16,827 bases of DNA from an uncultured Faecalibacterium sp. Its GTDB lineage: Bacteria; Bacillota; Clostridia; Oscillospirales; Ruminococcaceae. The translations under genes were made by a program, and so were the position numbers. This document shows, one piece after another, positions 8,330 through 14,224 of the stretch (position 1 is its first letter; every line of letters starts with the position of its first letter). Where the stretch lies: assembly GCA_934525405.1 (NCBI GenBank), contig CAKSZF010000027.1, forward strand, positions 1-16,827, written 5' to 3'. The notes beneath the pieces were generated by a model. The model saw only the letters and a list, made by a program, of their open reading frames with translations. It was not told the DNA's origin and did no database searches.

Positions 8330-10192
8330 TTAGTTGGCAGCTTCCTTGCTGGCGCTGGTCTCAGTCTTGGAAGACGCGGGCTTTTCCTCTTTAGAAGAAG
8401 CCGGTTTTTCCTCCTTGGAGGAAGCTGAATGTTCCTGCTTAGAGGAGGCAGGTTTTTCCTCCTTGGAAGAAGAGCTGCTCTGCGAAGAAGAACCGGGCTT
8501 TTCCACCTTAGAAGAAGGCGCAGAGGAAGCAGGCTTCTCCACCTTGGAGGAACTGCCAGTGCTTTCAGAAGTACCGTTCGAGGAGGAAGAAGTGGGCTTA
8601 TCCTCCTTGGAAGAGGCCGGTTTGTCCTCCTTAGAGGAAGATGTTTCTTCCTTGGAAGAAGCAGGCTTATCCTCCTTAGAGGATGCACCAGAACTGCTGG
8701 TGCTGCTGGACGAGCTGGACGGTGCACCGCTGACTGTAAGTTCCAGCTTGTTGCTGGTCACGGTGCAGTCGTTATAGCTGGCGGTGGCGTACACCCGGAA
8801 GGTGCCGCCCAGCATAGAGGGGTCCACCTCGCCCTTTACGGTGGTCTTACCGGCAGCTTGTGTCACCTCGCTGCCATTGACATACCAGCGGATGCTGGAA
8901 GCGTCCAGATACTTGCCCTTGAGGGTAGCTTTAAAGGTGTAGGAATCTCCCAGCACAGCCTTGCCGCTGCTGCTGATCTGGATAGAGGCTGCCGCAAACA
9001 CAGCAGTCACATCCACGTTCTGGTCAAAATTGGTATCGGTGCGGGTGCGCTTGGTCACGCCATCGCTCCACTTGACGAACACATAGCCGTCATCCGGCAC
9101 AGCGGTAACAGTCACGCTCTGGGCGGCGCTGGTCACCTTGACCGTAAGGGACTTACCGCTCTCATTGCCGCAGGTCAGGGTGCCGCCGCCGGTTTTATCC
9201 ACACGGTAACCGGCCTGATACTCCGTTTTTTCCTCAACAGCCGAGGAAGAGACTTCCTCCGAGCTGCTGGGCGCTTCCACCGCAGAGCTGGGGTTGGCGG
9301 TATATTCGGCGCGGGTGGGGATGTTATTGGTATCCGGGCGGCGATCCTCGGTCTCATAGGCGTGGGTGCGCAGATACTTCAGCAGCACCTTCAGGCCTGC
9401 AGGTTTGAGGTGGATATCGCCGCTCTGGTAATAATCGACATTGCCATAGCCGTTGGCGTCCTTGAGCGCCTCGGCAGAGTTGAGGAACTTGACCCCCAGC
9501 TGCTCACACATGGTCAGCAGCGCCATGTTGAAATCATCAATGCGGGTCTGGTCCATATTGGGGTAATTGGAGTGGTTGGACGGAACCGGCGGCACCGTGT
9601 TGACGATGATATCAGTATAGGGATAGCTGGCCTGAATGGCCTGTACCAGCGCGGTGTAGTTGCTGATAAAGTCCTCGGTATTCATGCCGTTATCGTTGGT
9701 GCCCAGCATGATGACCACCCGGCGGGGCTTCATTTTTGCCACTGCCTGTGCGATGGTGTAACGGTTATCGTCCCGCTTAAAAGTGACGATGCCTTCGTTC
9801 AGGGCGGCACTGGTACCAATGCCTTCTTTGGCACAGAACTGCTGCAGCGAAATCAGACCGTTGGCGTACAAACGCACCGTGTTGGAATCGCCGATAAAAA
9901 GGGTCTGCTCCTGATAGGCGTCACCAGCATCAGCAGTCCCGGTGAGCAGTGCGCTGGAAGTCTCGTTGATCTGGTAGTGGTCGGAGATATCCTCCTCCCC
10001 TTCCGGTGCGGGCGCGGGGGTAATAATGGAAGAATCCCCCGGCTGCTCCGTCGGGTTCTTGCCCCGCTTGAGCATGGTAAGGGTGATGCCGATGGTCAGC
10101 AGCGCCGCCAGTGCACACACGATGCACACCAGCACCGCCTGCTTCTGCATCGGGGTCAGAGCCTGATTCTCCTTTTGGTTATTGCTTCTCAT
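8330..10192 (-). CDS. Membrane-anchored SGNH/GDSL hydrolase with surface repeat tail
   Basis: A 620-residue protein with a clear modular layout. Residues 1-17 are cytoplasmic and polar; 18-41 form one membrane segment with positive residues (KRGK) after it and no obvious cleavage site, so it is probably a membrane-anchored extracellular protein. Residues about 95-275 are an SGNH esterase domain: block I FIGDSNT (nucleophile S103), block III GTNDN (N166) and block V GDIHL (H261). Residues about 332-400 resemble the 'bacterial repeat' beta module (VPDDGYVFVKWSDG), and 402-488 an Ig-like module. Residues 489-620 are a Ser-rich tail of SSKEEKPA-type repeats with no LPxTG. It probably de-acylates an envelope or dietary polysaccharide; the substrate is unknown. 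AAGGAG precedes the ATG by 12 nt; the gph-like gene ends 39 nt upstream. Confidence 0.88.
   Translation of the reverse strand: MRSNNQKENQALTPMQKQAVLVCIVCALAALLTIGITLTMLKRGKNPTEQPGDSSIITPAPAPEGEEDISDHYQINETSSALLTGTADAGDAYQEQTLFIGDSNTVRLYANGLISLQQFCAKEGIGTSAALNEGIVTFKRDDNRYTIAQAVAKMKPRRVVIMLGTNDNGMNTEDFISNYTALVQAIQASYPYTDIIVNTVPPVPSNHSNYPNMDQTRIDDFNMALLTMCEQLGVKFLNSAEALKDANGYGNVDYYQSGDIHLKPAGLKVLLKYLRTHAYETEDRRPDTNNIPTRAEYTANPSSAVEAPSSSEEVSSSAVEEKTEYQAGYRVDKTGGGTLTCGNESGKSLTVKVTSAAQSVTVTAVPDDGYVFVKWSDGVTKRTRTDTNFDQNVDVTAVFAAASIQISSSGKAVLGDSYTFKATLKGKYLDASSIRWYVNGSEVTQAAGKTTVKGEVDPSMLGGTFRVYATASYNDCTVTSNKLELTVSGAPSSSSSSTSSSGASSKEDKPASSKEETSSSKEDKPASSKEDKPTSSSSNGTSESTGSSSKVEKPASSAPSSKVEKPGSSSQSSSSSKEEKPASSKQEHSASSKEEKPASSKEEKPASSKTETSASKEAAN
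8333..8728 (-). repeat. Degenerate 24-bp coding repeats (SSKEEKPA tail)
   Basis: This stretch encodes the C-terminal 132 residues of the SGNH protein. The octapeptide SSKE(E/D)KPA recurs, with variants SSKVEKPA, SSKEETSS and SSKQEHSA, interleaved with poly-Ser runs. Read on the plus strand, the pattern TCCTCCTTGGAGGAAGC and relatives recurs at 24-nt spacing. Such tracts change length by slippage or recombination and usually act as flexible, wall-spanning stalks. Confidence 0.85.
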
Positions 10193-11484: not shown

Positions 11485-11793
11485 TTACTGCTTTTCTGCC
11501 TGTGCGCGCACCTTCTCGATGGTGTCACGATAGCCGCCGGAGCCGTATTGGATGCAGCGATTGATGCGGCTGATGGTGGCGGTGCTGATCTCCACCGCCT
11601 TGACGATCTGCTCATAGGTAGCACCGTCCAGCAGCAGCTTTGCCGCCTGCAAACGCTGTGCCATATCCGAGATCTCTTTTACGGTGCACAGATCCTCAAA
11701 AAAGGCGTAGCACTCTTCCCGGCTCTCCAAACTGAGGATGGCATCAAACAGCGCATCTGTTGTCTCGTTTCTTCTTGAATTTTTGTCAGCCAT
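11485..11793 (-). CDS. yerC: TrpR/YerC-family DNA-binding protein
   Basis: A 102-residue, all-helical protein of the YerC/YecD family related to the Trp repressor. The region EISDMAQRLQAAKLLLDGATYEQIVKAVEISTATISRI (about residues 40-77) contains the TrpR-type helix-turn-helix, with the recognition helix near STATISRINRCIQ. These proteins are presumed transcriptional regulators; target and ligand are poorly known. I chose the ATG at 11793 because AAGGAG stands 7 nt upstream; the longer frame from 11832 would add 13 residues (an Ala/Ile/Arg-rich stretch) with no such site. A promoter with an internal dyad lies at 11873-11901, suggesting self-regulation. It is divergent from the T-box/cstA unit and is followed by the 108-aa gene. 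Confidence 0.88.
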   Translation of the reverse strand: MADKNSRRNETTDALFDAILSLESREECYAFFEDLCTVKEISDMAQRLQAAKLLLDGATYEQIVKAVEISTATISRINRCIQYGSGGYRDTIEKVRAQAEKQ

Positions 11794-11818
11794 TGTTTTT
11801 CTCCTTATTATAATAGCG

Positions 11819-11850
11819 GCGGCAGCGGGCAAAACAGACGATGCTGCCGC
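11819..11850. repeat. 8-bp inverted repeat in the yerC leader
   Basis: Arms GCGGCAGC (11819-11826) and GCTGCCGC (11843-11850) are separated by 16 nt. They lie between the yerC promoter and its ribosome binding site, so they could form a leader hairpin or an operator. No function is demonstrated. Confidence 0.4.
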
Positions 11851-11872
11851 GCGGGATATTCTGCACCTTATT

Positions 11873-11901
11873 ACTTTAGCACTTCAAAGTGTGAAAGTCA
11901 A
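11873..11901 (-). promoter_or_regulatory. Probable yerC promoter with an internal dyad
   Basis: On the minus strand, TTGACT (11896-11901; 5 of 6 consensus) and TAAAGT (11873-11878; 4 of 6) are spaced by 17 nt. Between them is the dyad CACTT-TG-AAGTG (11880-11891), a typical place for a repressor operator. The leader to the yerC ATG would be about 75 nt. Confidence 0.6.
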
Positions 11902-12035
11902 GACCTGTTGGTGAATGCTTTTCAATTGTATACGTGTTTAGTTTTATTCTCTTCACACATGAAAGAAAATCACCTAAAAATTATTCCCGGAAAATGGCTT
12001 GAATTGGCGCTTCCTCTGAACTTGTGACAGAAATA
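11902..12035. other. AT-rich divergent intergenic spacer
   Basis: This stretch lies between the yerC and cstA promoters. It is distinctly AT-rich compared with its surroundings and holds no coding frame with a ribosome binding site. A loose resemblance to a CcpA cre site at 11927-11940 has too many mismatches to call. It probably holds regulator-binding sites, but I see none that I can name. Confidence 0.5.
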
Positions 12036-12064
12036 TTGACAATTGGTGAAAAGCGGAATAAAGT
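12036..12064 (+). promoter_or_regulatory. Promoter of the T-box/cstA transcript
   Basis: A perfect -35 TTGACA (12036-12041) lies 17 nt from TAAAGT (12059-12064). Transcription is expected to begin near 12071, about 15 nt before the base of T-box Stem I and about 425 nt ahead of the cstA start. Confidence 0.75.
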
Positions 12065-12071
12065 AGAACAC

Positions 12072-12412
12072 AATCATTCAGCAAATGCAAGGAACAGGAC
12101 ATGATCTTCTGCATCACCCTCTTTCAGCGAGCCGCTTCTCGGGTGAAAAAGCGGCAGTCAGGAGCAGAGGACCCTCGCCTGCGAGCAGCCTGTGTGAACC
12201 GGGTTTTGTGCCCCTTAGTAGCACGGTGCCGTCCAGCCCACGTTATCGGGCAGCATGGTCAGTGTACCATGCGTGGGAGAGTGGCTGTCCTAAGACAGCA
12301 AGCGAAGTGGTACCGCGGAGTAATGCCCCTGCCCTGGCAGGCGGGAGCAGAAGCCTTCGTCTTCGGAACGTGGCCGAAACACCGGTCATGTGCTGAGGAC
12401 GAAGGTTTTTTT
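12072..12412 (+). promoter_or_regulatory. T-box riboswitch leader of cstA (best specifier CUC, leucine)
   Basis: A tRNA-sensing leader that ends transcription early unless uncharged tRNA binds. Stem I reads as TGC/GCA at the base (12086-12088/12185-12187), a K-turn with tandem G-A pairs (12092-12093/12183-12184), and a CAGG/CCTG helix (12095-12098/12178-12181). The specifier loop has ATGA on the 5' side and CCCTCG on the 3' side. Above it are TCTTCTGC/GCAGAGGA (12105-12112/12164-12171) and the distal stem GCCGCTT/AAGCGGC with the GCGAGCC motif. Codon CUC (12174-12176) followed by G fits the usual codon-purine layout. Stem III is GCTGTC/GACAGC (12284-12299). The T-box AGTGGTACCGCGG (12306-12318) has UGGU, matching a tRNA with A73 such as tRNA-Leu. 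CGAAG (12303-12307) can pair with CTTCG (12355-12359) as antiterminator, blocking the terminator. Family call very sure; leucine moderate. Confidence 0.95.
12354..12412 (+). terminator. T-box regulated intrinsic terminator
   Basis: Arms CCTTCGTC (12354-12361) and GACGAAGG (12398-12405) are followed by seven T residues (12406-12412). The inner part contains a second small stem, TTCGG/CCGAA. The 5' arm is shared with the antiterminator, which makes the two folds mutually exclusive. Confidence 0.92.
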
Positions 12413-12496
12413 ACACTCTGGGGCAACGCTTTGTCGGACGGCAGCCTATCGTTCCGAACCTGTTGCGGAGTGAAAAAAGGAAAGAGGTAGAAAACT

Positions 12497-14224
12497 ATGA
12501 ATACGCTGGTCATCGTATTGATCGCAGCGGTGTGCCTGTTTGGCGCTTATGTGCTTTACGGCCGCTGGCTGGCTAACAAATGGGGCGTCGACCCCGCTGC
12601 CAAGACCCCGGCAGTGGTCCACGAGGACGGCCGGGACTATGTGCCCACCAACGGCTGGACGGTGTTTGCCCACCAGTTCAGCTCCATTGCCGGTGCAGGC
12701 CCTGTTACCGGCGCCATTCAGGCCGCAGCCTTCGGCTGGCTGCCGGTTCTGCTGTGGGTGCTGCTGGGCGGCATCTTCTTCGGCGCTGTCACCGACTTTG
12801 GTGCCCTGTATGCTTCCGTTAAGAATGACGGCAAGAGCATGGGTATGCTGATTGAAAAGTACATCGGCAAGACCGGCCGCAAGCTGTTCCTGCTGTTCTG
12901 CTGGCTGTTCTGCGGCATCGTGATTGCCGCTTTTGCGGACATGGTTGCCGGCACCTTCAATGCCTTTGGCGCAGACGGCGCAATGGTTGAGGCTGCCAAG
13001 ACCAACGGTGCTGCCGGCATGGTGTCCATCATGTTCATGGTGTTCGCCGTTATCTTTGGCCTGCTGCAGAAAAAGTTCAACTTCTCCGGCTGGAAGGAAA
13101 GCGTTATCAGCATCGTGTTCATCGTGCTGTCCTTTGTCATCGGCGCAAACCTGCCTCTGATCCTGGGCAAGGCCGCTTGGAGCTACATCACCTTTGTGTA
13201 TATCTTCTTTGCCGCTGTGCTGCCCATGTGGCTGCTCAAGCAGCCCCGTGACCACATGACCACCTTTATGTTCGTGGCCATGATCGTGGGTGCTGTGGTT
13301 GGCCTGCTGGTGGCACACCCCACCATGAACCTGCCTGTGTTCACCGGCTTTACCAACGAAAAGCTGGGCACCATGTTCCCCATCCTGTTCGTCACCGTGG
13401 CCTGCGGTGCAGTTTCCGGCTTCCACAGCCTTGTTTCCTCCGGTACTTCCTCCAAGACCGTTGAGAACGAGAAGGATATGCTGAAGGTCGGCTACGGTGC
13501 CATGATCCTTGAAAGCCTGCTGGCTGTTCTGGCTCTGTGCGTAGCCGGTGCTGCCGCAGCTGCCGACGGCACCCCTGCTGCCGGTACCCCGTTCCAGATC
13601 TTCAGCCGCGGCGTTGCCGGTTTCTTTGAGATGTTCGGTGTGCCCGCCTACGCTGCCACCGTGTTCATGACCATGTGCGTTTCCGCACTGGCTCTGACCA
13701 GTCTGGATGCCGTGGCCCGCATTGGCCGCATGAGCTTCCAGGAGCTGTTCAGCGTGGACGACATGGAGCACGCTGAGGGCTGGCGCAAGCTGTTCTGCAA
13801 TGTGTACTTCTCCACCTTCATCACTCTGGTGTTCGGCTTCATCCTGACCAAGATCGGCTACGCCAACATCTGGCCTCTGTTCGGTTCTGCCAACCAGCTG
13901 CTGAGCGCACTGGTGCTGGCTACCCTGTGCGTGTTCCTGAAGGTGACCGGCCGCAGCAACAAGATGCTGTTCCCCCCGCTGGTCATCATGCTGTGCGTCA
14001 CCTTTACCGCACTGGTGCAGCGCCTGATTGCTATGGTCAAGGCCATCAGCACCGCCGCTTCTGTTACTATCCCTGCCGGTGAGACCACCTGGGGCGCTGT
14101 ATTTATCGCAAACGGCCTGCAGCTGATCCTTGCTGTGCTGCTGATCGTGCTGGGTCTGAATATTGTGTTCCATTCCTTCTCCGCATACAAGAAGGCTGAG
14201 CACAACAGCGAAGCAAAAGTCTGA
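12497..14224 (+). CDS. cstA: CstA/BtsT-family carbon starvation transporter
   Basis: A 575-residue polytopic membrane protein of the CstA family, whose members import peptides (CstA) or pyruvate (BtsT) with protons. Family landmarks are RDYVPTN (46-52), FSSIAGAGPVTG (61-72), GWLPVLLW (80-87), GAVTDF (96-101), CGAVSGFHSLVSSGT (303-317) and FGSANQLLSALVLATLC (462-478). About 14-16 membrane segments are expected. The length is that of the short Gram-positive form (near 600) rather than the ~700 of E. coli. The ATG at 12497 has GAGG 9 nt upstream. Codon choice is strongly biased toward CTG, AAG, TTC and GGC, suggesting high expression. It is controlled by the T-box leader and ends in a terminator shared with the convergent GNAT gene. 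Substrate is not determined; amino-acid control favours peptides. Confidence 0.95.
   Translation: MNTLVIVLIAAVCLFGAYVLYGRWLANKWGVDPAAKTPAVVHEDGRDYVPTNGWTVFAHQFSSIAGAGPVTGAIQAAAFGWLPVLLWVLLGGIFFGAVTDFGALYASVKNDGKSMGMLIEKYIGKTGRKLFLLFCWLFCGIVIAAFADMVAGTFNAFGADGAMVEAAKTNGAAGMVSIMFMVFAVIFGLLQKKFNFSGWKESVISIVFIVLSFVIGANLPLILGKAAWSYITFVYIFFAAVLPMWLLKQPRDHMTTFMFVAMIVGAVVGLLVAHPTMNLPVFTGFTNEKLGTMFPILFVTVACGAVSGFHSLVSSGTSSKTVENEKDMLKVGYGAMILESLLAVLALCVAGAAAAADGTPAAGTPFQIFSRGVAGFFEMFGVPAYAATVFMTMCVSALALTSLDAVARIGRMSFQELFSVDDMEHAEGWRKLFCNVYFSTFITLVFGFILTKIGYANIWPLFGSANQLLSALVLATLCVFLKVTGRSNKMLFPPLVIMLCVTFTALVQRLIAMVKAISTAASVTIPAGETTWGAVFIANGLQLILAVLLIVLGLNIVFHSFSAYKKAEHNSEAKV

Follow-up and report, generated by a model that had tools for sequence, protein, structure and literature searches.

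T-box leaders with leucine or isoleucine specifiers ahead of the transporter gene cstA in Faecalibacterium and its relatives

The cstA locus and its T-box leader

The window, the whole stretch of 16,827 nucleotides analysed here, consists of Faecalibacterium-like DNA. Its nearest genome is G001, with 95% identity over window positions 11850-12700, and among named CstA loci those of Faecalibacterium are closest. On the plus strand it carries cstA, preceded by a promoter-like site and a T-box leader. A gene for a YerC/YecD TrpR-like regulator (11485-11829, minus strand) lies upstream of cstA and divergent from it, and 8330-10192 on the minus strand encodes a GDSL-lipase-like protein whose long tail is a Ser/Lys/Glu repeat of the SSKEEKPASSK type. 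The features of the locus are the following.

12036..12064, plus strand: promoter-like site TTGACA-17-TAAAGT, from a motif search
12081..12335, plus strand: T-box leader RNA, a full-length RF00230 match under the gathering score
12082..12187, plus strand: Stem I (K-turn region, specifier loop, distal AG/GGUG loops), from model R1
12174..12176, plus strand: specifier codon CUC (Leu), followed by G12177, its register checked on other T-boxes of G001
12304..12364, plus strand: predicted antiterminator, GAAG 12304-12307 and GCGGA 12315-12319 with UUCGUCUUC 12356-12364, -22.9 kcal/mol
12308-12318, plus strand: T-box UGGUACCGCGG, by sequence reading
12308..12311, plus strand: bulge bases UGGU, able to pair with the 3' ACCA of tRNA-Leu(GAG), by sequence reading
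12354..12412, plus strand: intrinsic terminator, predicted fold, 12354-12366 with 12393-12405, then U7 at 12406-12412
12497..14224, plus strand: cstA, CstA-family transporter of 575 amino acids, PF02554

The protein matches PF02554 with 473.9 bits (E=9.8e-142; cut-off 27). With NF011590, the equivalog model of the pyruvate/proton symporter CstA, it reached 234 bits against a cut-off of 1188, and was therefore not filed as that equivalog. Aligned with E. coli CstA over 369 columns it is 38% identical; it is the shorter of the two, E. coli CstA having 701 amino acids; a sequence search against solved structures found no matching relative. G001 also encodes a second CstA-like protein, a distant one with 35% identity, at C1:2946793-2948250, and some relatives seem to possess a tandem pair.

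The leader matches RF00230 over model positions 1-219 of 219, with 66.3 bits and E=3.9e-14. A scan of the whole window at the gathering threshold, where the cut-off is 93 bits, returned no RF00230 match because the score of the leader lies under it; given the strong E-value, this miss was not counted as evidence against a T-box. The gathering score was passed by 8 of 20 other cstA leaders from relatives, so that some of these are probably in databases already. Stem I was recovered by R1 with 87.4 bits and E=6.7e-20, the window itself being in the training set of that model. The predicted terminator has a folding energy of -40.9 kcal/mol (12350-12412), and positions 12356-12364 are common to both predicted pairings, the terminator's 5' arm containing the 3' strand of the antiterminator. 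The fold of the leader beats 100 of 100 dinucleotide shuffles, with a z of -3.2. A chance origin was ruled out by these shuffles and by conservation, since Stem I is found upstream of cstA in most named loci (below). That the T-box belongs to another gene was also ruled out, there being no gene between leader and cstA; cstA is the sole gene after the leader, and the gene that comes next has the opposite orientation. Promoter-like sites in the 801-base region numbered 3 on both strands against 0.7 expected. In a Faecalibacterium alignment the -35 hexamer is identical and the -10 reads TAAARU in 11 of 11 rows (10 distinct), including the T-box-less locus L022.

The specifier was read with a rule of three bases, any base, two pyrimidines, three bases, GAG, and then C or T. 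G001 has 15 RF00230 matches at E<=1, 6 of them above the gathering cut-off, and the codon fits the downstream gene in 13 of its 14 non-cstA T-boxes, 11 by the rule and 2 by eye. The codons read by the rule are TAC for tyrS, TTC for pheS, GTC for valS, GCC for alaS, ACC for thrS, ATG for metS and a methionine-type ABC operon, AAC for asnS and asnB, and, among branched-chain amino acid T-boxes, ATC for ilvB and CTG for leuA; the cysS and trpX T-boxes escaped the rule, and inspection by eye gave TGC and TGG for them. Gene names were given by eye from the translation, except that of an SBF (bile acid:Na+ symporter-like) transporter, named by Pfam, which stands behind its own ATC T-box (L003; L236, 3131-4075) and is possibly another 2-oxo acid or branched-chain amino acid-related transporter in the same regulon. 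Other frames of the window specifier (CCC, UCG) were rejected, as the register that fits the other G001 T-boxes gives CUC. A tRNA-Leu(GAG) with a gene-encoded ACCA end is present in G001, the nearest genome rather than the window's own assembly; its GAG pairs with the CUC specifier and its ACCA with the UGGU bulge.

The window leader is a complete T-box of the transcription-termination type. The sequence-only reading had described a complete leucine T-box directly ahead of cstA and serving cstA alone, and was borne out in each respect by the full-length match, the specifier, the bulge, the terminator and antiterminator, the gene order and the tRNA. The RF00230 match it expected was obtained by E-value and failed at the Rfam cut-off. 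The mechanism of this T-box is canonical, while its target, cstA, is unexpected but conserved.

Conservation of the leader and its specifiers

The search for T-boxes ahead of the cstA genes of relatives, proposed with that first reading, succeeded. R1, the Stem I model, has a training set of 31 cstA leaders, selected by a regular expression for a CTC or ATC specifier; 49 of 80 loci were picked and 33 left after thinning, L059 and L069 were dropped as irregular, and L017 was replaced by the window. It finds the leader upstream of cstA, on the cstA strand, in 55 of the 80 named CstA loci, of which 30 are in the training set and 25 outside, several of the latter being near-copies of training leaders; 2 of the 80 loci have less than 450 nt of upstream sequence. 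Among loci with a CstA at least 48% identical the leader is present in 91 of 143, counted over collections that are partly redundant, and in a genus sample of 31 genomes it is present in 17 of the 24 having a close CstA. With more distant CstA proteins (<48% identity) a T-box motif was found in 2 of 58 loci (L110, L111), which were left uncounted as cstA leaders, the motif lying about 700 nt upstream of the gene. An Rfam rescan of 11 R1-negative loci (L022, L025 and nine others) gave no T-box. CstA proteins from four Spirochaetota-labelled MAGs (L064, L065, L066, L086) have no R1 match at their loci, and the three of them that are in the CstA tree (L064, L066, L086) fall within a mostly Lachnospiraceae clade, by transfer or mis-binning.

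The pairing of Stem I is supported by covariation. Two-sided changes occur in 13 of 19 Stem I pairs, and covariation is 0.440 against a shuffled mean of 0.233, with 0 of 500 shuffles as high and slid controls at or below 0.177. The antiterminator and terminator were examined in the 75 distinct leaders whose motif was recognised no more than 400 nt from cstA. A leader's own antiterminator arm (GAAG, AAAG, AGAG or GGAG) finds a partner in 72 of the 75, as compared with 7 of 225 control tests with arms of other leaders, and a terminator stem of at least 8 pairs stands at the T-run in 63 of 75, against 8-16 of 75 in five shuffles. These tests replace earlier loose counts of 84/87 each, which were uncontrolled; both were redone with controls, the terminator more strictly.

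The T-box motif among the 91 cstA leaders is UGGUAACG in 57, UGGUACCG in 19 and UGGUAUCG in 11, and was unrecognised in 4, two of which read UGGUAACA (L094) and UGGUACCA (L221). The commonest form differs from the branched-chain amino acid operon T-boxes, in which UGGUACCG stands instead. Elsewhere in four of these genomes, 12 of 14 T-boxes that do not precede cstA have UGGNACC, and the prevalence of the other motif ahead of cstA points to a shared, co-inherited leader. In the 57 leaders, L027 and L067 for example, the bulge is UGGUAAC in place of UGGUACC.

All 65 dereplicated cstA leaders have a specifier for isoleucine (AUC, 49) or leucine (CUC, 16). As no other specifier occurs, cstA is tied to the branched-chain amino acids, and judged by these codons it would be a member of the branched-chain amino acid T-box regulon. 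Training of R1 on CTC and ATC leaders could bias this count; R1 nevertheless recognises other codons as well. Of the 14 T-boxes of G001 that do not precede cstA it recovered 9, and in 6 of these the codon is none of AUC, CUC and CUG; five further amino acids are represented (Asn, Tyr, Val, Ala, Met).

The protein tree of CstA (107 rows and 4 outgroup rows, 111 in total), made by a quick method and with some long branches flagged, has 42 rows without leader and needs at least 7 changes between isoleucine and leucine and about 20 changes of presence, so that the T-box has often been lost or gained. Within Faecalibacterium, L164 has AUC where its sisters have CUC, and the leader is absent from F. 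hattorii (L022 and L163, the same genome) and a sister species, G585 (L161), in which the promoter-like and ribosome sites are kept; the same holds for the Gemmiger formicilis locus L026. One Faecalibacterium (L019 and L157) has an insertion of about 160 nt between terminator and cstA.

Branched-chain amino acid synthesis and the substrate of CstA

Pyruvate is the precursor of leucine, of valine and partly of isoleucine. In two genera of one family (G1171 and G1142; L237 and L238) cstA, itself behind a T-box, is divergent from an ilvB-ilvN-ilvA operon that has its own AUC T-box, with Pfam support for all three genes in G1171 and for ilvB and ilvA in G1142; a RidA-like gene follows the operon in L237. 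Furthermore, leuB, leuC and leuD are neighbours of cstA in Agathobaculum (L033, with L210 apparently the same species), and ilvC lies beside it in G1258 (L217), whose cstA has no T-box. Together these are 6 ilv or leu genes at 4 independent loci, where a crude estimate expects about 2.2 genes, and the excess is a weak, only suggestive clue to the substrate. The gene ilvC is present in 42 of 45 chosen T-box genomes; in a sample drawn across the order, some members of which are T-box genomes too, it is present in 128 of 198 (Fisher p=5e-5, kinship ignored); counted by genus in the G genomes, the figures are 13 of 14 and 74 of 114 (p=0.036).

From the leader, the specifier, the tRNA match, the terminator and antiterminator and the conservation with Ile/Leu specifiers only, all observed in silico, we infer tRNA-dependent read-through and the substrate of CstA. 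On balance it is probable that a tRNA-Leu T-box controls cstA by antitermination within the branched-chain amino acid regulon, and that the transporter imports pyruvate, or some other short 2-oxo acid, as starting material for making leucine and isoleucine. Uncharged tRNA-Leu(GAG) would accumulate and its anticodon would pair with CUC in Stem I; its ACCA end would then pair with UGGU, so that the antiterminator replaces the terminator, and RNA polymerase would read through into cstA. The imported pyruvate or other short 2-oxo acid would most likely serve as a carbon precursor for leucine and isoleucine.

The sequence-only reading had proposed an amino-acid-starvation signal for the transporter, which agrees with the Ile or Leu specifier of every leader, and had concluded on peptides rather than pyruvate as the substrate. 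The latter conclusion is not supported over pyruvate, because E. coli CstA is reported to be pyruvate-specific (PMC7730263), because the specifiers tie cstA to the branched-chain amino acids, for which pyruvate has the precursor role given above, and because a T-box-ilvB operon is divergent from cstA in two relatives. Import of peptides or of branched-chain amino acids themselves under the same T-box, with the charging of their tRNAs as the shortage signal of a scavenger, is rather unlikely but has arguments of its own. Three genomes keep the T-box(Ile)-cstA arrangement and have neither ilvC nor ilvD, namely G388 (99% complete, AUC) and those of L027 and L035, and precursor supply is therefore not the whole story there; as pyruvate is no cure for branched-chain amino acid starvation when ilvC and ilvD are absent, import of branched-chain amino acids, peptides or branched-chain 2-oxo acids has to be considered for them. 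Homologues of CstA are also linked to peptide use in older reports, as cited in PMC7730263, and amino acid transporters are commonly under T-boxes according to Wels 2008 (PMC2494555). Against this, peptides are not specific for branched-chain amino acids, yet the specifiers are for Ile and Leu only; the ilv and leu neighbours of cstA are biosynthetic; and uptake of pyruvate by E. coli CstA was reportedly competed only by pyruvate and bromopyruvate (PMC7730263).

Less likely still, and improbable as it stands, is an import of branched-chain or broad 2-oxo acids by this CstA clade, from which transaminases would make Ile, Leu and Val with or without ilvC and ilvD. Such import fits a pyruvate-type family and the ilvC/ilvD-negative T-box genomes alike, and would suit the switching between Ile and Leu specifiers. 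The genomes of L027 and L035 have a CTG T-box ahead of a gene that by eye resembles leuA (at L252 and L266) and would need external 2-oxoisovalerate, although these two genomes may be incomplete. We know of no member of the CstA family that carries branched-chain 2-oxo acids. E. coli CstA, moreover, is reported to be narrow in its substrate (PMC7730263).

Relation to known T-boxes and meaning for CstA

The favoured reading, control of cstA by branched-chain amino acid tRNA with pyruvate or a related acid as the import, sets the leader beside the T-boxes of branched-chain amino acid operons. The T-box of the B. subtilis ilv-leu operon has a CUC specifier, and such operon T-boxes likewise possess a Stem I with CUC or AUC, a T-box bulge and a terminator and antiterminator; they control a biosynthetic or synthetase gene, whereas the gene here is that of a CstA transporter. 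E. coli CstA and BtsT (TC 2.A.114) are of the same transporter family as the window protein, and E. coli cstA is regulated by CRP and CsrA (PMC7730263), while cstA of the window stands behind a T-box. T-box-controlled amino acid transporters in Wels 2008 (PMC2494555) are likewise linked to one amino acid, and the families named there include ABC, APC, DAACS, LIVCS, MFS, NHAC and NSS. The word cstA is absent from the main text of that study and from a review of C. difficile riboswitches.

A literature search, to which most subscription papers were out of reach, found no report on a T-box with cstA besides that on Bacillus methanolicus MGA3 (PMC4342826), although T-box databases may hold such cstA leaders without comment. 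In that report a T-box stands upstream of cstA1, as here, with no amino acid given, and was taken for a probable relic since the transcript signal ended short of cstA1; in the relatives described here the association of a T-box with cstA is kept in many genera and the specifiers are for Ile and Leu only. That the present T-box is such a relic of another transcription unit, without control of cstA, is scarcely credible, since the break in transcript signal between the start site and cstA1 (PMC4342826) is also expected past the terminator of a working T-box in amino-acid-replete cells, and since, even though several species have no leader, its position and orientation are the same in 55/80 loci, its specifier, terminator and antiterminator are all conserved, and the T-box-less loci inspected still have promoter-like and ribosome sites.

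Returning to the favoured control of cstA by branched-chain amino acid tRNA, the evidence suggests an importer that is switched on when branched-chain amino acids run short, and predicts that bacteria short of them take up pyruvate or related acids. Natural comparisons are offered by the series of Ile/Leu switches and by the T-box-less sister species with a promoter-like site. A wider proposal, held tentatively, is that a CstA clade of gut Clostridia may have specialised in supplying 2-oxo acids to the synthesis of branched-chain amino acids, bringing in pyruvate and perhaps branched-chain 2-oxo acids, with T-boxes that flip freely between tRNA-Ile and tRNA-Leu; if this is true, keto-acid scavenging would be driven by amino acid rather than carbon starvation. 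The leader is a regulatory clue to CstA in gut Firmicutes such as Faecalibacterium, and it links the transporter to leucine and isoleucine supply and not, or not only, to carbon starvation.
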